Source: Isoptericola halotolerans
GTDB lineage: Bacteria; Actinomycetota; Actinomycetes; Actinomycetales; Cellulomonadaceae
Direction: 5' to 3'
DNA: 64,000 bases
Assembly: GCF_013149785.1 (NCBI RefSeq)
Contig: NZ_JABEZU010000002.1
Span: 744,001 to 808,000, forward strand
Positions within the stretch are counted from its first letter, which is position 1; every line of letters starts with the position of its first letter. The translations under genes and the position numbers were made by a program. This document shows, piece by piece, positions 25,068 to 34,894 of the stretch. The notes beneath the pieces are model-generated. The model ran no database searches, had not been told where the DNA came from, and was given only the letters and a program-made list of their open reading frames with translations.

Positions 25068-25673
25068 CTAGCGTTGCGCTGACACGATGAGCAGGAGGAC
25101 GCCGGCCAGGGCGGCCCCGGCCAGCGGGACGCCGAGGAAGAACGCGGTGTGCAGGCGTCTGCGGGTGCGGTGGTTCGCGACGGCCTCGTGCTCGCCGTCA
25201 TGGAGCTCACCGAGGGGCCCCTCGGTGAGCCAGCGGTTGATCGCACGCGCCGACCCGCCGTGCGTGCGCGAGGTGGACGGCACGTGCAGGACAAGACGGA
25301 GCGGCCGGGCGCGCCGACGGTCGACGACGAGAGTCTGGAGCGGCTGGAGGTAGTACCAGGCGGTGACGTCGTCGAGGTGGATGCGGTGTCGTCGCGTGCG
25401 ACCCCAGGCGCTGCGCGCGACCTCCACCGTCCGGGCTCCGGCGTCGTGCGTGATCAGCAGCTCGTAGGTGCAGGCCCGCAGCAGCACGAGGGCGAGCCCG
25501 CAGGTGAGGGCGGCGAACGCCATCGCGGCCGCCAGCGCCGTGACCAGGTGGTCCATCCCCGCGAAGACCAGGTAGGCGGCCGCCGACATCGCCGGGACGA
25601 CGAGCGTGACGAACGGACCCACGGCATAGCCGCGAACCCCGGGCGGCGAGCGAAGGGCGGCGGGTGTGCGCAC
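25068..25673 (-). CDS. Membrane protein, PH-like, unknown function
   Basis: 201 residues with helices at about 20-42, 45-67 and 175-197 around a beta-rich middle (YELLITHDAGARTVEVARSAWGRTRRHRIHLDDVTAWYYLQ) that resembles a PH-like sheet. GTG start at 25673. It precedes the shorter gene at 24558-25058. I do not recognise a named family with certainty. Confidence 0.6.
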   Translation of the reverse strand: MRTPAALRSPPGVRGYAVGPFVTLVVPAMSAAAYLVFAGMDHLVTALAAAMAFAALTCGLALVLLRACTYELLITHDAGARTVEVARSAWGRTRRHRIHLDDVTAWYYLQPLQTLVVDRRRARPLRLVLHVPSTSRTHGGSARAINRWLTEGPLGELHDGEHEAVANHRTRRRLHTAFFLGVPLAGAALAGVLLLIVSAQR

Positions 25674-25721
25674 GGCTCGATGCTACGCAGGGCTTCTCGG
25701 GTATGGGACTCCTTCTCAACA

Positions 25722-25749
25722 ATATAAGTGTATTGCAAGATGTTTATAT
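25722..25749. promoter_or_regulatory. ArsR-type operator (28-bp dyad)
   Basis: ATATAA at 25722-25727 and TTATAT at 25744-25749 are inverted about the same centre (25735.5) as an inner palindrome TTGCAA at 25733-25738. This AT-rich island in a GC-rich genome lies 19 bases before the arsR start, as expected for a self-repressing SmtB/ArsR operator that overlaps the promoter. Confidence 0.65.
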
Positions 25750-25767
25750 GTGTGGTCTGATCGAGAC

Positions 25768-26112
25768 ATGGACACGGAGCCAGGACTGGCCGCAGCGGCA
25801 GAGCTCTTCAAGGTGCTCGGCAACGAGTCGAGGCTCCGCCTGCTGCACCTGATCGGGCAGGAGCCGCGTGCGGTGGGGGCGTTGGCGGACGTGACAGGCA
25901 TGTCGCAGCCGCTGGTCTCGCAGCACCTGCGCACCCTGCGCCAGGCGGACCTGGTCACCGCAGATCGCCGGGGCAGGGCGCTGATCTACCAGGTGGCCGA
26001 CCTGCACGTCACCCATGTCATCTCCGACGCGCTCGTCCATGTCCGAGAACCGGCCGCAGCCGTCAGTGCTGCGGACGAGGAGTCCCACCCAGCACAGGAG
26101 GAACCAGCATGA
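25768..26112 (+). CDS. ArsR/SmtB-family metalloregulator
   Basis: 114 residues. Winged helix: AELFKVLGNESRLRLLHLIGQ (N-terminal helices), recognition helix MSQPLVSQHLRTLRQADLV and the wing ADRRGRALIYQVAD. The C-terminal helix DLHVTHVISDALVHVRE provides His/Asp/Glu residues in the place of the alpha-5 metal site of SmtB/CzrA-type zinc or nickel sensors; there is no CVC arsenic motif. Overlaps the histidine-rich gene by ATGA, so it most likely represses that gene and itself until metal binds. Confidence 0.88.
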   Translation: MDTEPGLAAAAELFKVLGNESRLRLLHLIGQEPRAVGALADVTGMSQPLVSQHLRTLRQADLVTADRRGRALIYQVADLHVTHVISDALVHVREPAAAVSAADEESHPAQEEPA

Positions 26113-26405
26113 CTGTCACCGACGTCCACGCCGAGCACACCACGTCCGAGCACGAGCACGGGGCCGACTGCGGCCACGAGGCCGTCCAGCACGGCGACCA
26201 CGTGGACTACGTCCACGGCACCCATCGGCACGCCCTGCACGGCGACCACTACGACGAGCACGAGTCGGTCGCGGAGCACTCCGTCTCCGACCACACCCAC
26301 GGCACGGACTGCGGCCACGAGGCCGTCGAGCACGACGACCACGTCGACTACGTCCACGACGGCCACCGGCACGCGGCCCACGCCGACCACTACGACGAGC
26401 ACTGA
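26109..26405 (+). CDS. Histidine-rich tandem-repeat metal-binding protein
   Basis: 98 residues, of which 25 are His, with many Asp/Glu. It is built of two about 38-residue repeats of the form H-x-HGxDCGHEAVxHxDHVDYV then HxHRHAxHxDHYDEH, each with a single Cys. No signal peptide or membrane span. The composition and the metal-sensor gene in front of it point to a cytoplasmic zinc/nickel buffer or metallochaperone. Similar short proteins occur beside CDF exporters or ArsR genes in actinobacteria, but I know of no assigned activity. Confidence 0.75.
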   Translation: MTVTDVHAEHTTSEHEHGADCGHEAVQHGDHVDYVHGTHRHALHGDHYDEHESVAEHSVSDHTHGTDCGHEAVEHDDHVDYVHDGHRHAAHADHYDEH

Positions 26406-26466: not shown

Positions 26467-26551
26467 AAGGGCGGCCTCGCATCAACGAGGCCGCCCTCTT
26501 TCGTGACGGTGCGCCTGAAGGGACTCGAACCCCCGACCTTCTGCTCCGGAG
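26467..26551 (-). repeat. attL: 85-bp direct repeat carrying 3' half of tRNA-Arg and its terminator
   Basis: Identical over 85 bases to 34779-34863. It contains a terminator hairpin (GGGCGGCCTCG at 26469-26479 with its complement at 26486-26496) and the tRNA-Arg 3' end through the T arm to the anticodon stem-loop, ending at CTCCGGAG. After 26551 the sequence departs from the tRNA, so this is a displaced fragment, not a working tRNA gene. Confidence 0.92.
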
Positions 26552-26725: not shown

Positions 26726-28336
26726 GTGAGTACACCCGTCAGTTCCGAGAGTATCGCTGGGGGCAGGTCCGGCGCGACTGGTCTGGCCGCACTTGGCCGG
26801 AGCCGCAAGCAGTTGGCGGAGTTGGTCGATGCGGTGGGGGTCGCGCAGCCGTGTCAGCGGCCGGTGGTCAAGAAGTGCAGGACGGCGTCGGGCGAGGCGC
26901 GGGAGGTGTCGATCCGGTGTGGTACCCGGTTTCGTCGCCGCTGCCCGAGTTGCGCGCATCTCTACCGCGGTGATGTGCGAGCCGTGATGTACGACGGCCT
27001 GAACGTGATTCGTGATGCGGCGGAGGGTGTGGGCGACGCACTGTTTTTCTTGACCTTCACGGCGCCGTCCTTCGGCCGGACGCATCGTGCGGCCAAGGGC
27101 TACGAGAAGGGTGGTCGGCGGTGTGGGTGCGGGCGTCGGCACGAGCCGGGCAGCGCGTGGCGCGGGGTACCGCTGCGCTTCTCCGAGTACGACTACGTGT
27201 CCCAGGTCCCGTGGAACTACTGCGCGGGCCGACTGCTGTCGCGGACGATGGACGAGGTGGGAAGACTCCTTGAACTGGACGGCCGGCCGACCTACATCAC
27301 GGTGGCGGAGTACCAACAGCGCGGCGCTATCCACTTCCACACGCTGCTGCGGGTAAATCGACATCTGGTGCCGCAGATCAAGGCGGCGGTGCTGAAGGCC
27401 ACCGAGGCGACGAAGGTTTACGCGGGAGCGGGTACTACGGGCGACAAGATCGGGCGGGGCGAGCAGATCGACGTGAAGCACGTCGAGATGAAGACCGGTG
27501 CTGAGGCGTACAAGACGGCGGGGTACCTCGCGAAGCTCGTGGGGTACAGCGCGAAGGATCTGGGCCGGGATCTGCTGGACGAGTCGGCTGCGGCGGATGC
27601 TCTCGGGGTGGCGGAGCGTGCCCGCGCGGTCCACGTGGGCTTCATGCGGGGTGCTGTGTCAGACGCCATGTACGGCCTGGATGATGTGGGCGGTCTGCCA
27701 GCACCGAAGAAGGTCGGGGAGTCCCGTCAGTTCGCCACCCCGGCGGCTGACCTGCTGGATGGTCCGCCGTCCGCGATCTGGGCTCAGGTCCGCAAGAGCG
27801 TCGAAGGGCTTCGGGCGCATGCTGTCGAAGTCGGTCGGCGTGATCTAGTGCCGATGCCGAGCGTTGATGCCCTGGGCGGACTGGATGACGCCACTCTGGG
27901 TGCTTCGGCCGGGGTGGCTCCGTGGGATCGTGAGTCGGTCCCACCCGGTCGTGATGGTGCCGGACCAGGGCAGGGCGTGCTGGTCGAGGTCATCCGTGAC
28001 CGGGGACTGCGCTACGACCTTGTGGACCAGGACGTGGCTGACGACGTGGCGGCTGTGCCTGCTGAAGATGTGGGAGAGGTGGCACACCCTGCTGCCACGG
28101 GTCGGGTCCTGGAGCAGTGGGGGTGGCGGGGCCACGTGGTGAGGAAGAGTCGTCGGTGGGGCATGACGATGACGGAGTGTCGTGAGCGGCGCCGTCGTCA
28201 TGCTGCCGAGCAGCGCGAGACGATGGGATGCGTTGAGGCCGTCGAGTGGCTGCCTGGCACGAGGGTGATGGAGCGCACCGAGTGGGAGGACCTGATCGCA
28301 GCGGCCAGTGCTGCGGTTCCCAGACCACACGGTTAA
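26726..28336 (+). CDS. Replication initiator, RepSA-like HUH endonuclease
   Basis: 536 residues, GTG start. A Cys-rich zinc-binding segment (CGTRFRRRCPSCAHLYRGD), motif 1 FFLTFTAPSFG, the metal-binding HUH motif IHFHTLL (His203, His205) and the catalytic tyrosine region EAYKTAGYLAKLVGY (Tyr262, Tyr267). These make it a rolling-circle initiator of the type carried by AICEs and actinobacterial plasmids, nicking one strand at the element's origin after excision. The C-terminal 200 residues are less conserved and mostly polar. It opens the left side of the element; 137 bases without a clear gene follow (28337-28474). Confidence 0.88.
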   Translation: MSTPVSSESIAGGRSGATGLAALGRSRKQLAELVDAVGVAQPCQRPVVKKCRTASGEAREVSIRCGTRFRRRCPSCAHLYRGDVRAVMYDGLNVIRDAAEGVGDALFFLTFTAPSFGRTHRAAKGYEKGGRRCGCGRRHEPGSAWRGVPLRFSEYDYVSQVPWNYCAGRLLSRTMDEVGRLLELDGRPTYITVAEYQQRGAIHFHTLLRVNRHLVPQIKAAVLKATEATKVYAGAGTTGDKIGRGEQIDVKHVEMKTGAEAYKTAGYLAKLVGYSAKDLGRDLLDESAAADALGVAERARAVHVGFMRGAVSDAMYGLDDVGGLPAPKKVGESRQFATPAADLLDGPPSAIWAQVRKSVEGLRAHAVEVGRRDLVPMPSVDALGGLDDATLGASAGVAPWDRESVPPGRDGAGPGQGVLVEVIRDRGLRYDLVDQDVADDVAAVPAEDVGEVAHPAATGRVLEQWGWRGHVVRKSRRWGMTMTECRERRRRHAAEQRETMGCVEAVEWLPGTRVMERTEWEDLIAAASAAVPRPHG

Positions 28337-28687: not shown

Positions 28688-28950
28688 TGGAGCGCCCCGC
28701 GTACTGGCCCGCCCCTGAGCATCTGATGCGCCGCGAGGGATCGATCATCGGCCCGCACAGGGACGACGCGGACCAGGTTCTGGCGGCCGCTGCGTTCCGC
28801 CGTTCGCTGCTCCGGGGCCCGACCCCGGCCGCGGTCGACAGCGACGGCTTGCCGTCGCTGAACGCGCACGACATCATCCGGGGTGTGTTCAACCCCGTAT
28901 CGAAAGATCCGCCTGCAACCTGGGGCGCGACTAGAGTCCACGGCCTGTGA
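28687..28950 (+). CDS. Small hypothetical protein of the element
   Basis: 87 residues (MERPAYWPAPEHLMRREG). Coupled to the preceding gene by a one-base overlap. The middle (DADQVLAAAAFRRSLLRG, then NAHDIIRGVFNP) is helical. Its 3' end overlaps the convergent HAD gene by 20 bases. No family recognised. Confidence 0.45.
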   Translation: MERPAYWPAPEHLMRREGSIIGPHRDDADQVLAAAAFRRSLLRGPTPAAVDSDGLPSLNAHDIIRGVFNPVSKDPPATWGATRVHGL

Positions 28951-29422
28951 GGAACCGGTGGGCCTTGTCGAGCAGTGGGGCGGTGAGGCCGACACGGGGT
29001 GGTACTTGCAGGAGCATCGGTTGGCCCTGGGCGTAGTGCTCGGTCACGTAGTGCTGTCGCTCCTGAGTGAGGTCGTCGTCGATCCACGCGAACCGGGTTC
29101 CGCCTGCGAGGCAGCGTTGAACGGTCTTCAGCTTAGGCCAGGTGTCGTGTGGCTCGTCGCTGATCGGGACCTCGCCGAGCAGGGGGAAGTCGTCGAGCCC
29201 GAGAACGGGGGAGACCGTGCGTGCATCCTGCCCCCAGGACGTCAGCCATCGCAGTTCCACCAGCCCACGACGGCTGATGCCGTTCAGGTGCGCGATGACG
29301 TCGGGTCGGTACAGGAGCCGGTATCTCCCGACATGTGCCAGGGCCAGGTCATCGGTGGGCTCATCGCCGTACGGGCTGACGACACCGTCGAAGTCGAGGA
29401 GCAACATAGGTGGGCTGCTCAT
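28931..29422 (-). CDS. HAD-superfamily protein (Swiss-Army-Knife RNA-repair-like HAD domain)
   Basis: 163 residues. HAD motif I is LLLDFDGVVSPYG (nucleophile and general acid Asp), a Ser/Thr motif II may be WLTSWGQDA, motif III Lys is in DTWPKLKTVQ, and motif IV is FAWIDDDLT. No large cap domain. Stand-alone proteins of this shape are usually annotated as HAD domain in Swiss Army Knife RNA repair proteins. Cargo of the element, transcribed against the transfer operon. It could be a small phosphatase or nucleic-acid end-processing enzyme; substrate unknown. Confidence 0.75.
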   Translation of the reverse strand: MSSPPMLLLDFDGVVSPYGDEPTDDLALAHVGRYRLLYRPDVIAHLNGISRRGLVELRWLTSWGQDARTVSPVLGLDDFPLLGEVPISDEPHDTWPKLKTVQRCLAGGTRFAWIDDDLTQERQHYVTEHYAQGQPMLLQVPPRVGLTAPLLDKAHRFLTGRGL

Positions 29423-29481: not shown

Positions 29482-29907
29482 CTAGTCGCGGTTGGTGCTA
29501 GTACGGCGGACTTCGAGCGTGATGGGGTCGCGGAGTCTCGTGCCGTGCAGGACGGATAGGACGCGGGAGAGGGCCCGCTCGATGGTGGGTTCGTCGAGCG
29601 TGGCGACCACTTCGGTGTGCCCGAGCGGGTGCTCGCTGATCGTGGCGTGGTAGTCGCCGATCGCGACGGCAAGGGTGTCGTCCTCGGGGTCCGGGGATCC
29701 GGTGTAGGTGACGGTGACGGTGTACGTCGTGCTGGTACGGCCCACCAGGTCGTCGCCGCGGGTCCTAGCGTCGTCGGCGGACGCTACGTGACCTCGGGCG
29801 AGTGCCTTCAACCACTCGGGCGTACGCCGTCCCCGTCGCTGATCGATGGTGACGCGTGCTCGTGCGGCAGCGCGTAGTTCTCGTGGCGAGGTTGGACGTT
29901 CCGTCAT
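29482..29907 (-). CDS. Hypothetical protein of the element
   Basis: 141 residues from ATG at 29907 (MTERPTSPRELRAAARARV). Basic helical N-terminus, then a beta-rich region with STTYTVTVTYTGSPDPEDDTLAVAIGDYHATI. The frame stays open upstream through the 18-bp repeat array to 30102, coding PMGGWG repeats, but that extension is best read as non-coding. Same strand as the HAD gene, 59 bases apart, so the pair may form a cargo operon. No family recognised. Confidence 0.5.
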   Translation of the reverse strand: MTERPTSPRELRAAARARVTIDQRRGRRTPEWLKALARGHVASADDARTRGDDLVGRTSTTYTVTVTYTGSPDPEDDTLAVAIGDYHATISEHPLGHTEVVATLDEPTIERALSRVLSVLHGTRLRDPITLEVRRTSTNRD

Positions 29908-29975
29908 GCGATGACCGTAGGCATGCGATCCGGGCTGCGCGACCACATGTTCCACCCGAGTGCGTGTGGTCGGGG

Positions 29976-30078
29976 CCATGGGTCCACACCCACCCATGGG
30001 TCCCCACCCACCCATGGGTCCACACCCACCCATGGGTCCCCACCCACCCATGGGTCCCCACCCACCCATGGGTGGGTG
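29976..30078. repeat. Six 18-bp tandem repeats with ACCCATGGGT cores, ending in a 20-bp palindrome
   Basis: CCATGGGT recurs at exact 18-base intervals (ATG at 29978, 29996, 30014, 30032, 30050 and 30068). The unit is CCCATGGGTCCNCACCCA, and each core ACCCATGGGT is itself palindromic. The last copy extends to the perfect 20-bp palindrome CACCCACCCATGGGTGGGTG at 30059-30078. The array lies between the leftward cargo genes and the rightward transfer operon, the place for a replication iteron, a clt-type transfer site or a regulator-binding array. Confidence 0.85.
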
Positions 30079-30144
30079 ATGGGTACTCCAGTAGGCCGAC
30101 AATTAGCAATGTGGACAGTTAGTCACGTGTCTATGATGGGGCAT

Positions 30145-30164
30145 CACCCACCCATGGGTGGGTG
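30145..30164. repeat. Second 20-bp CACCCACCCATGGGTGGGTG palindrome
   Basis: A separate perfect copy of the 20-bp palindrome that ends the tandem array, 66 bases further on. Confidence 0.85.
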
Positions 30165-30206
30165 TGATTGATGGATGGTGCGGGTGCTCGTGGGAGGGCG
30201 CGTTAT

Positions 30207-30234
30207 GGGGGGGGGGGTGCCCACCCATGGGTGG
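30207..30234. repeat. G11 tract and third, shorter palindrome
   Basis: Eleven consecutive G at 30207-30217 are followed by the 14-bp palindrome CCACCCATGGGTGG at 30221-30234. The G-run may be variable in length or an assembly weak point. Confidence 0.75.
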
Positions 30235-30559
30235 TCTCTGGTCTATGGAGGTGCGCGACCTCAGTCGTCGTTTCCCCTGCCTCGCACCTGCTGTGCTTGC
30301 AGTGCTATGACCTGGGCTGTCGTGCGCGATGTGGAGATTCGGTGAGAAAATATCGACGTGATGCACGGGGCAACTAACTGTCCTGACCTGCACAGATGAT
30401 ATGACAATGCGTCGCAATGCCGTATTCACAAGCCTATTGCAGCAGGTCCCATCGCCGAGATCGTGGCATACGGGTGTGCGAGGGTCTGTGCGGAACCGAG
30501 AAACGGCTCGGTCTACGAGGTTCACGTGGATCTCGTGCACAGATGAGGAGGGACGCAGA
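30235..30559 (+). other. Intergenic leader before the transfer operon
   Basis: About 325 bases without a convincing gene and clearly less GC-rich than the flanks (for example GAGAAAATATCGACG near 30351 and GATGATATGACAATG near 30395). TATGAC or GATATG near 30398 could be a -10 element for the rightward operon. No stable hairpin or known riboswitch was recognised. Confidence 0.35.
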
Positions 30560-30949
30560 ATGCCGACGTACGCGGTGGATGGGAAGCGACAGGACATGGT
30601 CGCGACCGGTGTGGTGGAGCCGGAGATGGAGTGGTTCAAGAATGCTGAGGGGCAGTGGCGCTCCGGCGATGTGCAGGCTCGTCAGGAGGGCACGGGGCTG
30701 CCGCTCTGGGGTGTCGAGGTCGCCTATGCCTCCGAGGAGTGGGGGCGGGTGGAGACCGTCACGGCGATGGTGGTGGTGGGGTCGGCGACGCAGCCCGCTC
30801 CGTCGAAGTTCGCCCCGGTGACCTTTGGCGACCTGGTGGTGAGTGTGCGGGTCGACCGGAATAAGAAGCTGCGGGAGTCGTGGGTGGCGGGGAGCGTCGA
30901 CCTGCCAGCAGGAAAGGCGCCTCGGTCGGCGGGTGCCTCGGATGCCTGA
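30560..30949 (+). CDS. SCO3933-like small regulatory protein (tentative)
   Basis: 129 residues with GAGGAGGG before ATG. The pattern ATGVVEPEMEWFKNAEGQWRSGDVQARQEGTGLPLWGVEVAY followed by strands VETVTAMVVVGSA and FGDLVVSVRV resembles the SCO3933 family found next to tra genes on AICEs: a short beta-rich domain with a conserved G-x-P-L-W motif. First gene of a six-gene overlapping operon running to the integrase. Role unknown, probably in control of transfer or replication. Confidence 0.6.
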   Translation: MPTYAVDGKRQDMVATGVVEPEMEWFKNAEGQWRSGDVQARQEGTGLPLWGVEVAYASEEWGRVETVTAMVVVGSATQPAPSKFAPVTFGDLVVSVRVDRNKKLRESWVAGSVDLPAGKAPRSAGASDA

Positions 30950-31769
30950 GGCGCAGGTCCGGGCTGTCTGGATTGCCGTGGTTGCCGCACTGCTTGGTGC
31001 GCTGGTCGCCGTGCCCTTCGCCTATGGGGCGGGCCTGGACCGAGGTGGGGAAGGGGCGCAGGGGCAGGCCGAGGCTTTCGTTGCAGAGCAGGAACTTCCA
31101 GATGGCGTGGTGGTCAGCATCTCCCGCAACTGCGGGGCTGTAGGCCTCACAGGGGTCGATCGAGACAGCGGGCTGCTCGAAGCGTCCGCCTGGGGTGCGT
31201 ATGGGACCCCTGAGCGAATGGGAGCTACTGACACCTACGCGTACATCGAGGCGAGCCCAGACGTCACGAGTGATGGCTCGCACGTCGTGGTTGGAAGGCG
31301 CGGCTCACTGGAGTGGGGCGACGACCCGCTGGCCGAGGCGGTCGGCTTCGCGACGGACCTCGTTTCGTCGTCGTCGGGGGTGCCGATGGAAGCTGCGAGC
31401 TTTGACGCGTGGTGGGCCGTGTCTATGGGGGCTCCATTGATGGGTAGCTGGCCCCGTGTTCTGGTCGATCCAAACCGCCAGGAACGTGTCATGAGACCTG
31501 GCTCTGACGACGCTCACGTCTGCCACTGGGAGGCTGTAGCGGGAGACCGTGAGGTCACAGTCAACGGTCTCGTCGAGGGACGGGATCTGGACCTGATCCT
31601 GGTTAACGTGCAGGCCAAGCCGCTAAGGGACCGCTCCCTCTTCGGCCAACCGGCGGCCTTGCGGGCGCACCGGATGACGATGGTGGGCCAGAACGAGACG
31701 GGGTCGTGGGCATCCCTGCAGGAGTCCGGCCCGGATACTGCGCACCACTGGCGGGGGGTGGCCCAGTGA
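30942..31769 (+). CDS. Membrane-anchored hypothetical protein of the transfer operon
   Basis: 275 residues. One N-terminal helix (about 8-28, VWIAVVAALLGALVAVPFAYG) with the rest outside the membrane or in the cytoplasm; contains two Cys (about 64 and 189). The start overlaps the preceding gene by eight bases and its stop overlaps the FtsK-type gene (GTGA), so it is tied to the transfer machine. By position it could be a spread (Spd)-type or pore-accessory protein. I do not recognise the family. Confidence 0.65.
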   Translation: MPEAQVRAVWIAVVAALLGALVAVPFAYGAGLDRGGEGAQGQAEAFVAEQELPDGVVVSISRNCGAVGLTGVDRDSGLLEASAWGAYGTPERMGATDTYAYIEASPDVTSDGSHVVVGRRGSLEWGDDPLAEAVGFATDLVSSSSGVPMEAASFDAWWAVSMGAPLMGSWPRVLVDPNRQERVMRPGSDDAHVCHWEAVAGDREVTVNGLVEGRDLDLILVNVQAKPLRDRSLFGQPAALRAHRMTMVGQNETGSWASLQESGPDTAHHWRGVAQ

Positions 31770-33100
31770 GAACGATCGGACGTGTCGTGCTCGCCCTGCT
31801 CGCGCTCACATTGCTCTACAGGTGGGCGACGTCCATTCCTCGGGACATCGTGGCGGGCCTGCTCGGTCTGGTCGCGTTGTTGGTGCTGCTACGGCGCCTG
31901 CTGCGGCGAGGGCTCCGCCGCTTGCGTGTCGGGTTGACGCTGTGGCGCCGGTTCGGACGGCGTGGCGGACGCATCGTGAAGCTGGCCCTGAGGGACTGGC
32001 CGGAGGTCGCCGAGCGCTCCGGCCTGACGCGGCGTGCGCGCGACCAGCACGGCGCCAGCGTTAGAGAAGTGCCTCTGGTTCGACACGTGGACCTCAACAA
32101 CGGCAACGCGGTCCTGGAGGTCGAGCCAGTGGGTGGTTCCATCGCGGAGTACTCCGCGCGGGCTGCCGCGCTGGCGGGAGCGTTCGGCGCCGTGCGGGTG
32201 AGCATTGAGCCGGGTCGGTCACCTGGAATGGTGCGCCTGACAGTCGTCGACGCCGACCCCTTGTCCGACACGAGGGTGTCAACGAACCCGTACGTGGTGG
32301 GCGATGGCGTGCGCGTCGCGTTGGGGGTGTTCGAAGACGGTTCGCCATGGGAGCACGACTGGGTTGACGCCTCCCACGTGGCCCTCCAGGGTGCAACGCG
32401 CTCTGGGAAGAGTGTCATTACATACAGCTTGCTCGGGGGCGTCGCGGGCCGTGATGACGTGATCGTGACCGGCGTCGATCCTACGGGCGTCCTGTTTAGG
32501 CCCTGGCTGAATCACCCAGCTTCGGACCTGCGGGTCAGCGGGACGCGAGATATGTCAGCAGCAGCCGCAGTGCTTCACCGGCTGACCGAGATCGTGGACG
32601 CGCGAATTGCGGCGCTGGGTGACCGGGACAAGGTCGAGGCATTCTCGGCGGAGGAACCCTTGCTCTTGGTCGTGCTGGAGGAATACCCGGGGGTTCTCGC
32701 TGCTTCGATGGCGGAGGACGCAGGTCAGGCACGCAAGCCAGCTGAGCGGGTTCAACCCAGGATCAAGCGCAGTGTTCAGCGCCTCGTCCAGGAAGGGGCG
32801 AAGGTCGGGGTCAGAGTCCTCATCCTTGCGCAGCGCATGGACGCCGAGATCATCGGAGGCGCGGAGCGGTCGAACCTTGGTACACGCGTCTCGATGCGTG
32901 TGGATGCCCCGGAAGCGGTCCGAATGCTCCATCCGCAGGCACCGCAGGACGTGCCGGAGCGGATGACATATGCGAGCCCTGGCGTCGCATATGTGGATGT
33001 TCCTGGTCGTGGCGGTCGGTGGACGAAGGCGAATCTTATGGAGTACGGCGACTATCTCGCTGTCGTTCGGGGAGAGAACAAGAATGTGGTGCCGTCGTGA
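31766..33100 (+). CDS. FtsK/SpoIIIE-type DNA translocase (AICE Tra protein)
   Basis: 444 residues, GTG start in a GTGA overlap. Two membrane helices near the N-terminus (about 5-22 and 28-45), a basic linker, and a P-loop motor with Walker A GATRSGKS (209-216) and Walker B LLLVVLEEYPG (about 305). A later block, LILAQRMDAEIIGGAERSNLGTRVSMRV, is typical of FtsK-type transfer proteins. Such proteins assemble as hexamers and pump double-stranded DNA between mycelial or neighbouring cells without a relaxase. No C-terminal winged-helix gamma domain is obvious, so recognition of the transfer site may use another element-encoded factor or the short tail. Confidence 0.88.
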   Translation: MRTIGRVVLALLALTLLYRWATSIPRDIVAGLLGLVALLVLLRRLLRRGLRRLRVGLTLWRRFGRRGGRIVKLALRDWPEVAERSGLTRRARDQHGASVREVPLVRHVDLNNGNAVLEVEPVGGSIAEYSARAAALAGAFGAVRVSIEPGRSPGMVRLTVVDADPLSDTRVSTNPYVVGDGVRVALGVFEDGSPWEHDWVDASHVALQGATRSGKSVITYSLLGGVAGRDDVIVTGVDPTGVLFRPWLNHPASDLRVSGTRDMSAAAAVLHRLTEIVDARIAALGDRDKVEAFSAEEPLLLVVLEEYPGVLAASMAEDAGQARKPAERVQPRIKRSVQRLVQEGAKVGVRVLILAQRMDAEIIGGAERSNLGTRVSMRVDAPEAVRMLHPQAPQDVPERMTYASPGVAYVDVPGRGGRWTKANLMEYGDYLAVVRGENKNVVPS

Positions 33101-33306
33101 TCGAGAAGAGAGGCGAGAAGGACTGCGAGGGCATGCTCAAAGTGTCCGACGTCGCGGCGGTCTTGAACGTGTCGACGTGGCAGGTTCGTCACCTCGTTCG
33201 TGGGAGGGGCCTGCCTGCCTACCGGGTCGGCGACCAACTCCGAATCGCACCCGATGACCTGAAGGCGTGGTTGGAGAGCAACCAGGAAGGCGGTACTGAT
33301 GCCTGA
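33097..33306 (+). CDS. Excisionase-like helix-turn-helix protein 1
   Basis: 69 residues from GTG at 33097 (GTGA overlap with tra). MLKVSDVAAVLNVSTWQVRHLVRGRGLPAYRVGDQLRIAPDDLKAWLES is a MerR-like/Xis winged helix of the AlpA-excisionase type (HTH_17). Such proteins bend DNA at att arm sites and direct the integrase toward excision. Overlaps the next HTH gene by eight bases. Confidence 0.82.
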   Translation: MIEKRGEKDCEGMLKVSDVAAVLNVSTWQVRHLVRGRGLPAYRVGDQLRIAPDDLKAWLESNQEGGTDA

Positions 33307-33505
33307 TCTGCGAGAGCGGCAGGTTGTCCTGACCCAGGGCGAGGTCGCGACTCTGCTCCGCGTGCCGGAAGGGACGCTGCAGGACCTCGCGCGACGTGGA
33401 GATGACAGCATTCCGCGTCCGTGGAAGGTGGGGCGGGCTTGGCGCTGGGCGGCCGACGACGTGTACGCGTATGTCGAGTCCCGCGGGCGGGTGACCTCTG
33501 CGTGA
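33299..33505 (+). CDS. Excisionase-like helix-turn-helix protein 2
   Basis: 68 residues. A second HTH_17-type domain, VVLTQGEVATLLRVPEGTLQDLARRG, then a wing RPWKVGRAWRWAADDVYAYVESRG. Only distantly like its neighbour, so not a recent duplication. Its stop lies in the GTGA overlap with the integrase start. Two adjacent Xis-like genes on one small element are uncommon. Confidence 0.8.
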   Translation: MPDLRERQVVLTQGEVATLLRVPEGTLQDLARRGDDSIPRPWKVGRAWRWAADDVYAYVESRGRVTSA

Positions 33506-34680
33506 GCGTGACGAAGCGTACCCGCCTCGGAGTCGACGGTAGTGCCCGTGTCGTGTGGCGAGCGCGGGCCTGGACATATCCGCCTCATGGTGAGCGCAGG
33601 GAGGTCGAGAAGACGTTTAGAACGCGCCGTGAGGCCCTGGCCTGGGAGCGGGAGGCGGCCTTGTCGGCTCGTGGTCGAGACGTCGTGGTTGAACGGCTGC
33701 GGCTTGCGGACGCAGGGCTCTGGGAGCGGGCGGAGCCGGTGCTGCGGTCGCGTCTGTCTCCGAAGACTCTGGACCACTACCGCCGGGGGTACGCGGCGCG
33801 GGTGCTGCCGACACTCGGCGGGCTCGCGCTCGGTGACCTCGCGGTCGGGGACGTCGAGCGCGCGATGGCCTCGTGGGCTGCTGAGGGTGCGGGCCCGTCG
33901 ACGGTCCGGCAGGCGCGTCTTGCGCTCAGTGCTGTCCTCAACGTCGCGGTCCGGGACGGGCTGCTTCGGGCGAACCCGGCGCGCGACGCTCGTCGTCCGG
34001 TAGGGGACTTGGCGGCTCGTCGGGCTCGTCGGGTCGGTCAGACCCTCACGCCGAGCCAGGTGCGGGCCCTGGTGGCTACGATCCGCCGTGTGGCGGGCGA
34101 CCCGTACGCGACGATGGCGGATCTCGCGGCCGGGTCAGGGCTCCGGTATGGGGAACTCGCGGCGCTCCGGTGCGGGGACGTCGACACAGCGGCCGGGACG
34201 CTCCATGTTCGGCAGGCGGTCACGGAGGTGACGCGCGACGACGGTCCTGTGCCTGCGGGGCGCACCCGGGACGGCTCCCTCGTGTGGGGTGCACCGAAGG
34301 GTGGTCGGCAGCGTGTGACAGTCATCCCCGCGCACCTGCGGACGGTGTTGGCGTCGATGGTCGACGGCCGTCGATCGCATGAGCTGGTCTTCGTGTCGGT
34401 GCGCTCGGGGGAGGTGCCGCGTCCGATCCGGCGGAACACGTTCGCGCGGGCGACTCGCTGGACCGAGACGGTTCGAGGGCTCGGGTACCCGGGCTTTCGC
34501 ATCCACGACCTGCGGGCGTGCTTCATCACGAACAGCCTCGCGGCGGGTGTGCCCCCGCACGTCGTCCGGGAGATGGCTGGGCACCATGACCTGACCGTCA
34601 CGAACGGATACGCCCGGGCGCATGACGACGCGCTGACCAGGGCAGCCAAGCAGTTGGACGTGTGGTTCAAGACCGCGTGA
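33502..34680 (+). CDS. int: Tyrosine site-specific integrase
   Basis: 392 residues, GTG start overlapping the second HTH gene. An N-terminal arm-binding region (about 1-60), a SAM-like core-binding domain (about 60-175, SPKTLDHYRRGYAARVLPTLG) and the catalytic domain with the full residue set Arg215 (GLRYGEL), Lys266 (PKGGRQR), His335/Arg338 (HDLR), His361 (GHH) and Tyr370 (NGYAR). It recombines attP on the circle with the anticodon region of tRNA-Arg. The gene ends about 100 bases from attR, as usual for integrases adjacent to their site. Confidence 0.93.
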   Translation: MSVTKRTRLGVDGSARVVWRARAWTYPPHGERREVEKTFRTRREALAWEREAALSARGRDVVVERLRLADAGLWERAEPVLRSRLSPKTLDHYRRGYAARVLPTLGGLALGDLAVGDVERAMASWAAEGAGPSTVRQARLALSAVLNVAVRDGLLRANPARDARRPVGDLAARRARRVGQTLTPSQVRALVATIRRVAGDPYATMADLAAGSGLRYGELAALRCGDVDTAAGTLHVRQAVTEVTRDDGPVPAGRTRDGSLVWGAPKGGRQRVTVIPAHLRTVLASMVDGRRSHELVFVSVRSGEVPRPIRRNTFARATRWTETVRGLGYPGFRIHDLRACFITNSLAAGVPPHVVREMAGHHDLTVTNGYARAHDDALTRAAKQLDVWFKTA

Positions 34681-34778: not shown

Positions 34779-34863
34779 AAGGGCGGCCTCGCATCAACGA
34801 GGCCGCCCTCTTTCGTGACGGTGCGCCTGAAGGGACTCGAACCCCCGACCTTCTGCTCCGGAG
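34779..34863 (-). repeat. attR: 85-bp direct repeat, part of the intact tRNA-Arg
   Basis: Perfect copy of 26467-26551. On this side the repeat continues into the native 5' half of the tRNA, so the element's copy restores a whole gene together with the terminator hairpin (34781-34791 with 34798-34808). Confidence 0.92.
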
Positions 34864-34894
34864 GCAGACGCTCTATCCACTGAGCTACAGGCGC
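34822..34894 (-). tRNA. tRNA-Arg, anticodon CCG
   Basis: 73 bases without encoded CCA. Acceptor GCGCCTG (34894-34888) pairs with CAGGCGC (34829-34823), discriminator A at 34822; D arm GCTCAGTGGATAGAGC; anticodon loop CTCCGGA reads CCG; T arm holds TTCGAGT. It is the target of the mobile element: the 3' part lies within attR, the 5' part is chromosomal. It diverges from argS, whose product charges it. A terminator hairpin follows. Confidence 0.95.

Follow-up and report, generated by a model that had tools for sequence, protein, structure and literature searches.

A tight cluster of binding-site-like repeats occupies the control point of a small integrated element in Isoptericola halotolerans, and the function that we tentatively favour for it is that of the operator region of the element's pra switch. 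The stretch analysed (the window; positions 744,001 to 808,000 of contig NZ_JABEZU010000002.1) represents 64 kb of a genome of 3.97 Mb (six contigs), and the element within it is approximately 8.4 kb long and bounded by exact 85-bp direct repeats starting at 26467 and 34779. Judged from its predicted genes, the element belongs to the actinomycete integrative and conjugative elements (AICEs) of the pSAM2 type, as it combines an integrase and tRNA attachment (att) repeats with a RepSA-type Rep, a single FtsK/TraB-type Tra and a homologue of Pra. Ordinary in kind, the element has an unusual control locus, and the array is a single fragment that bears on two questions, namely what loads Tra and what replaces KorSA, the repressor of pSAM2.

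The repeat array and the distribution of its motif

The 10-mer ACCCATGGGT is present in seven exact copies (starting at 29992, 30010, 30028, 30046, 30064, 30150 and 30223), all of which fall within 241 bp (29992-30232). The remainder of the window contains none; the count expected in 64 kb is 0.02, and none of 100 shuffles reached seven. The 13-mer CCCACCCATGGGT is common to all of them, always in one orientation. The original prediction, made from the letters of the window, described six exact 18-bp periods at the start of the array. Tandem Repeats Finder does recover an 18-bp tandem (Table 1), but the count was slightly generous, because the first unit (29976) is degenerate and the five full units vary at one position (CCCC or CCAC). 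The palindromes that were predicted alongside are all present, two as perfect 20-bp dyads and the third as a shorter dyad of 14 bp, with a run of G (30209-30217) immediately 5' of it. Only two of the seven sites are thus full 20-bp palindromes; with their mirrored flanks they become the 23-bp arms of an inverted pair, one arm being 30059-30081, and enclose 60 bp.

The array lies, as had been proposed, in the largest non-coding region of the element (29908-30559, 652 bp), between the divergent genes orf141 and pra, and extends from -326 to -584 relative to the pra start. The best plus-strand -10-like hexamer of this region, TATGAT, is separated from the second palindrome by 7 bp. A minus-strand TATCAT at 30401 scores equally, and a consensus promoter scan found no promoter.

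Genome-wide, the 10-mer has eight occurrences, and the one outside the array is a terminator-like hairpin just past the point where a sigma-factor-like coding sequence ends (gene identity judged by eye). A host regulon is unlikely, because the motif is present only once elsewhere in the genome. Among 221 genomes of the family, only that of the window yielded the pair ACCCATGGGT-N8-ACCCATGGGT; the same held for ACCCATGGGT pairs with a spacing of 2 to 14 among 268 genomes of the order (the two sets overlap), and a search of viral_contigs for the N8 pair found none. The 16-mer CCCACCCATGGGTGGG was found in one contig, as a single site in what looks by eye like a low-GC phage, and was judged a chance match. 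A single copy of CCCATGGG falls within a pra-like gene, that of the further Pra element L012. A blastn search with 29960-30240 returned no match among plasmids and phages, in a comparison where the low-complexity filter may mask such a query.

Comparable arrays are also absent from the 1500 bp upstream of pra in all 29 related loci considered below. The maximum number of copies of one 8-mer per 300 bp was two or three upstream of pra in each of these relatives, compared with eight in the window. Among 16 sequences scanned whole, an equally dense 8-mer cluster was seen, besides the window, in L018 only. That cluster (L018:11525-11765) consists of dense CGCCGGAC/CAGTCCGG 8-mers with a 12-bp tandem period, lies approximately 3.5 kb from the Tra match and is possibly a coding repeat. 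A smaller array is located beyond the integrase of L015 (6648-6740), an AICE-like locus in a Micrococcales metagenome-assembled genome (MAG); its three tandem units, approximately 33 bp long and built around CCGCACGCCGTGCGG, all contain a long dyad.

The proposed pra switch and related elements

In pSAM2, Pra activates repSA, xis and int, and the GntR repressor KorSA acts through pra (PMC8584621). In S. coelicolor, footprinting of the KorSA homologue SCO3932 showed two sites in the interval that separates its own gene from the pra homologue (PMC8584621). The SCO3932-SCO3933 region resembles the array in lying upstream of a pra homologue and divergent from another gene, in carrying repeated dyads and in forming the switch of an element, as is proposed for the array. 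The window differs from it in having no GntR match among the element proteins scanned, seven sites rather than two, 18-bp tandem units and a distance of 326 bp to pra.

The 129-residue protein downstream of the array is assigned as a Pra homologue by sequence similarity. Its Pra-like counterparts in L013 and L014 (Table 1) are likewise encoded upstream of tra, and the Pra homologue of L024 matches a pDYM4.3k protein annotated as 'plasmid replication, integration and excision activator'. No Pfam or NCBIfam family matches the 129-residue protein directly. In L012, 'Pra' was placed by position and size, as it is only 16% identical to the protein of the window and was missed by tblastn. A profile built from five Pra proteins, including that of the window, was searched against 266 genomes of the class and gave more than 100 matches in 65 of them, the window's own genome among these. 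Thirty loci from these matches (29 relatives and the window) were analysed, with the match start taken as the pra start and the upstream open reading frame (ORF) picked from a simple list based on codon composition.

In 23 of the 29 relatives, the gene taken to lie next upstream of pra matches a GntR-, helix-turn-helix (HTH)- or UTRA-type regulator. Seventeen of these match GntR, three are Xre-type HTH proteins (L060, L065 and L070), two are HTH/DUF5919 proteins (L071 and L067, in the latter with every match under the Pfam cut-offs) and one matches UTRA alone (L074); in L056, L061 and L074 an additional ORF call lies between this neighbour and pra. The neighbour matches nothing in the other six, with no Pfam family in L048, L051, L053 and L055, and with no match for the ORFs chosen in L058 and L068, where the choice may be wrong. 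Five further elements with Pra show GntR in L013 and L014, UTRA in pMR2 and only sub-threshold HTH matches in L012 and pDYM4.3k. In L014, the regulator beside pra (1616-2443) is a fusion of GntR and P-loop kinase-like (AAA_33) domains. Genes for small XRE proteins mostly lie close to pra in Frankia AICEs (PMC3218068).

Repeated dyads were scored within 250 bp before pra and called significant when reached by at most 5 of 100 shuffles, with regions internal to pra as controls. Nine of the 29 relatives were positive, compared with two of 30 controls, one of which belongs to the positive locus L073. In five of the nine (L045, L056, L059, L061 and L064) the start of every dyad falls between -29 and -94, and the dyad letters vary between some of the loci. 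L024, which is the same locus as L045, carries three dyads like CTGGCTTAAGCCAG between a divergent GntR gene and pra. When the whole control region was tested, the window, L012 and L024 exceeded all 200 shuffles, while L013 was reached by one shuffle and pDYM4.3k by three; the L013 region was pieced together after the sequence had been viewed, and another L013 piece scored zero. This test was failed by L014, in which no pair was found, and by pMR2 (60 of 200 shuffles).

Because a regulator stands beside pra in 23 of the 29 relatives and significant dyads lie just upstream of pra in nine, we favour an array of operators at the pra switch, with a binder outside the GntR family. The position of the array between divergent orf141 and pra supports this assignment, as do the perfect dyads, which suit a dimeric regulator, and the -10-like TATGAT just before the second palindrome. 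Under this proposal, a DNA-binding protein that the element encodes (the likeliest being orf141 or the additional HTH protein, hth2) would bind the CCCACCCATGGGT sites cooperatively, as a dimer on the two perfect palindromes and spreading across the 18-bp tandem units. Binding would set transcription in both directions, of orf141 and of pra, and we infer that the pra product activates excision and replication like Pra of pSAM2. The array would in this way do the job of KorSA and its operators in pSAM2-type AICEs, enlarged to seven sites where other elements have two or three, and served by a different protein.

Several observations weigh against this proposal. The window's own 250-bp dyad test scores zero, because the array ends 326 bp before pra, unlike the dyads near the pra start in the relatives. 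A GntR match is absent from the ten element proteins scanned with Pfam, including orf141 beside pra, and orf141 has no recognised DNA-binding domain in Pfam, NCBIfam or PHROGs. It has a basic N-terminus, and its C-terminal part is predicted, at low confidence (AlphaFold2 pLDDT 58.8), to fold as beta-alpha-beta-beta-alpha-beta. Among the three functions originally suggested for the array (repressor operators, a transfer site read by Tra and an iteron origin), operators are nevertheless the best supported, because the locus is syntenic with the kor-pra switch found in related AICEs.

Transfer, replication and other explanations

Ranked second, behind the operator array, and in our judgement rather unlikely, is that the array is clt, the loading site for DNA transfer. 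Its anatomy fits. According to PMC3583192, known clt loci are short direct-repeat clusters with inverted repeats (nine 9-bp repeats in pJV1, four 7-bp repeats in pWTY27 and approximately 54 bp in pIJ101), and the winged helix of TraB reads 8-bp repeats. The seven CCCACCCATGGGT sites stand in one orientation, and the array is the sole 8-mer cluster seen in the element, in non-coding DNA. pSAM2-type AICEs move double-stranded DNA by means of one FtsK-like protein, and according to PMC9513070 a clt motif has not been described for pSAM2; a pSAM2-type clt could therefore resemble the array. The element shares with the loci of pJV1, pIJ101, pWTY27 and pSVH1 (PMC3583192) a direct-repeat cluster with inverted repeats and a single FtsK-like Tra, but differs from their description in its motif, in the palindromic core of the repeat and in a Tra with no detectable C-terminal winged helix.

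It is on this last point that reading by Tra, as originally suggested, is left unsupported in its known, direct form. Complete Tra proteins of pMR2, pDYM4.3k, L006 and L024 (the L045 copy is the L024 gene, shortened) were compared with that of the window, and none of the five has an HTH match at E up to 0.1. The pIJ101 Tra, used as a positive control, gave a C-terminal MarR_2-like match (594-631 of 648) that is itself under the Pfam cut-off, and its record names the protein as HTH. The TraB profile match to the window Tra stops at 447 of 639, and the lack of an array upstream of pra in the 29 relatives also speaks against a transfer site. If the array is clt, its reading would therefore differ from that in TraB plasmids, and hth1 or hth2 may act as an adaptor. 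A more specific version, in which the array is the first clt in a TraSA/pMR2-type AICE, the reader is a separate HTH protein (hth1 or hth2) in a split translocase, and the site doubles as the switch operator, seems to us a long shot. The original prediction named absence of the motif from related elements with the same tra gene among the observations that would count against it. No repeated copy was found in the relatives examined, but this test is weak, since the nearest Tra is only approximately 50% identical.

Another likeness is to the sps palindromes of pIJ101, in which a short palindrome, repeated two or three times, is bound by a small element protein (SpdA2; PMC4170104), as is proposed for the array. 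The sps palindromes are 12 bp long and lie inside spdA (before or at the spdA start in pSVH1 and pEN2701), and they affect stability and not transfer.

It is also conceivable, if improbable, that a single ordinary regulatory palindrome expanded neutrally by slippage to give the tandem part, and that function rests with just one to three sites. The five near-identical 18-bp units with one variable position, together with the absence of an array upstream of pra in the relatives, would fit a recent expansion, but slippage leaves unexplained the two sites approximately 70 and 150 bp past the tandem part, which carry an identical 13-bp core.

A replication site for Rep, whether a double-strand or single-strand origin or a set of iterons, we consider quite improbable. 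Tandem repeats and long palindromes in a large non-coding region would suit such a site, as would the 23-bp inverted pair around 60 nt. The iteron origin of the original prediction is not supported, because Rep is of the RepSA type rather than an iteron binder, RepSA being a rolling-circle initiator according to PMC3218068, and because 1.6 kb and other genes separate the array from the end of rep. Moreover, the 325 bp beside the array are no more structured than shuffled sequence (z -0.18). Least probable by far is that the array is coding sequence for GGWGPM hexapeptide repeats in an N-terminal extension of orf141. A unit of 18 bp corresponds to six codons, and no stop interrupts the orf141 frame across the array as far as 30102, but the array appears to be non-coding despite this open frame because GC content by codon position is flat in the extension (0.66, 0.71, 0.65), compared with 0.68, 0.56 and 0.79 in orf141 and a similar dip at position 2 in the other nine element genes, and two sites outside the frame would be left unexplained.

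Element boundaries and gene content

Coordinates of the array and of the element's genes are collected in Table 1. The NCBIfam RepSA equivalog match to rep (102 bits) is far under its cut-off of 700, and the TraB match to tra (44.7 bits) is under its cut-off of 800. Relatives of this Tra were found at E<=1e-20 in four of 200 genomes of the family and at E<=1e-25 in five of 396 genomes of the order and two of 394 of the class (the window's own genome included each time). Seven loci were found in genome_contigs, three of them from the same MAG as G197, and none was confirmed in viral_contigs.

Table 1. Features of the array and of the AICE-like element, in window coordinates
Feature	Position	Strand	Basis or remark
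attL, 85-bp direct repeat	26467..26551	.	exact 85-bp match to 34779-34863
rep, RepSA-type replication initiator (predicted)	26726..28336	+	PF20199 RepSA 8.2e-49
HAD-like protein (HAD_SAK_2)	28931..29422	-	PF18143 1.8e-07
orf141, divergent to pra	29482..29907	-	Pfam: none above cut-off; NCBIfam and PHROGs: none
tandem array, 18-bp unit CACCCACCCATGGGTCCM	29976..30073	+	Tandem Repeats Finder: period 18, 5.4 copies, 96% matches
perfect 20-bp dyad CACCCACCCATGGGTGGGTG, end of tandem array	30059..30078	.	
TATGAT, best plus-strand -10-like hexamer of region	30132..30137	+	5 of 6; without a good -35
second perfect 20-bp dyad	30145..30164	.	
third, shorter dyad (14 bp), after G-tract	30221..30234	.	
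pra homologue (129-residue protein)	30560..30949	+	34% identity to Pra-like proteins of L013 and L014
orf275, predicted, no family	30942..31769	+	library scans
tra, FtsK/SpoIIIE-type (TraB-like)	31766..33100	+	PF01580 above cut-off; NF041214 profile positions 171-447 of 639
hth1, HTH_17/excisionase-like	33097..33306	+	Pfam/NCBIfam; homologue before int in L024 and L015
hth2, second HTH_17/excisionase-like protein	33299..33505	+	Pfam/NCBIfam/PHROGs scans
int, tyrosine integrase	33502..34680	+	PF00589 8.3e-18
attR, 85-bp direct repeat	34779..34863	.	overlaps tRNA-Arg(CCG) 34820-34894 (-)

The genes downstream of pra are closely packed. The probable GTG start of tra sits inside the orf275 stop and the GTG start of hth1 overlaps the tra stop, so that GTGA overlaps join orf275 to tra and tra to hth1. 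The homologue of hth1 in L024 and L015 sits between rep and int, and rep therefore seems to have been relocated to the left end of the present element. The HAD_SAK_2 protein adjoins orf141 and is apparently cargo. Directly to the left of attL (25666-26405) lie an HTH gene, ArsR-like by eye, and then a gene for a histidine-rich protein of 98 residues.
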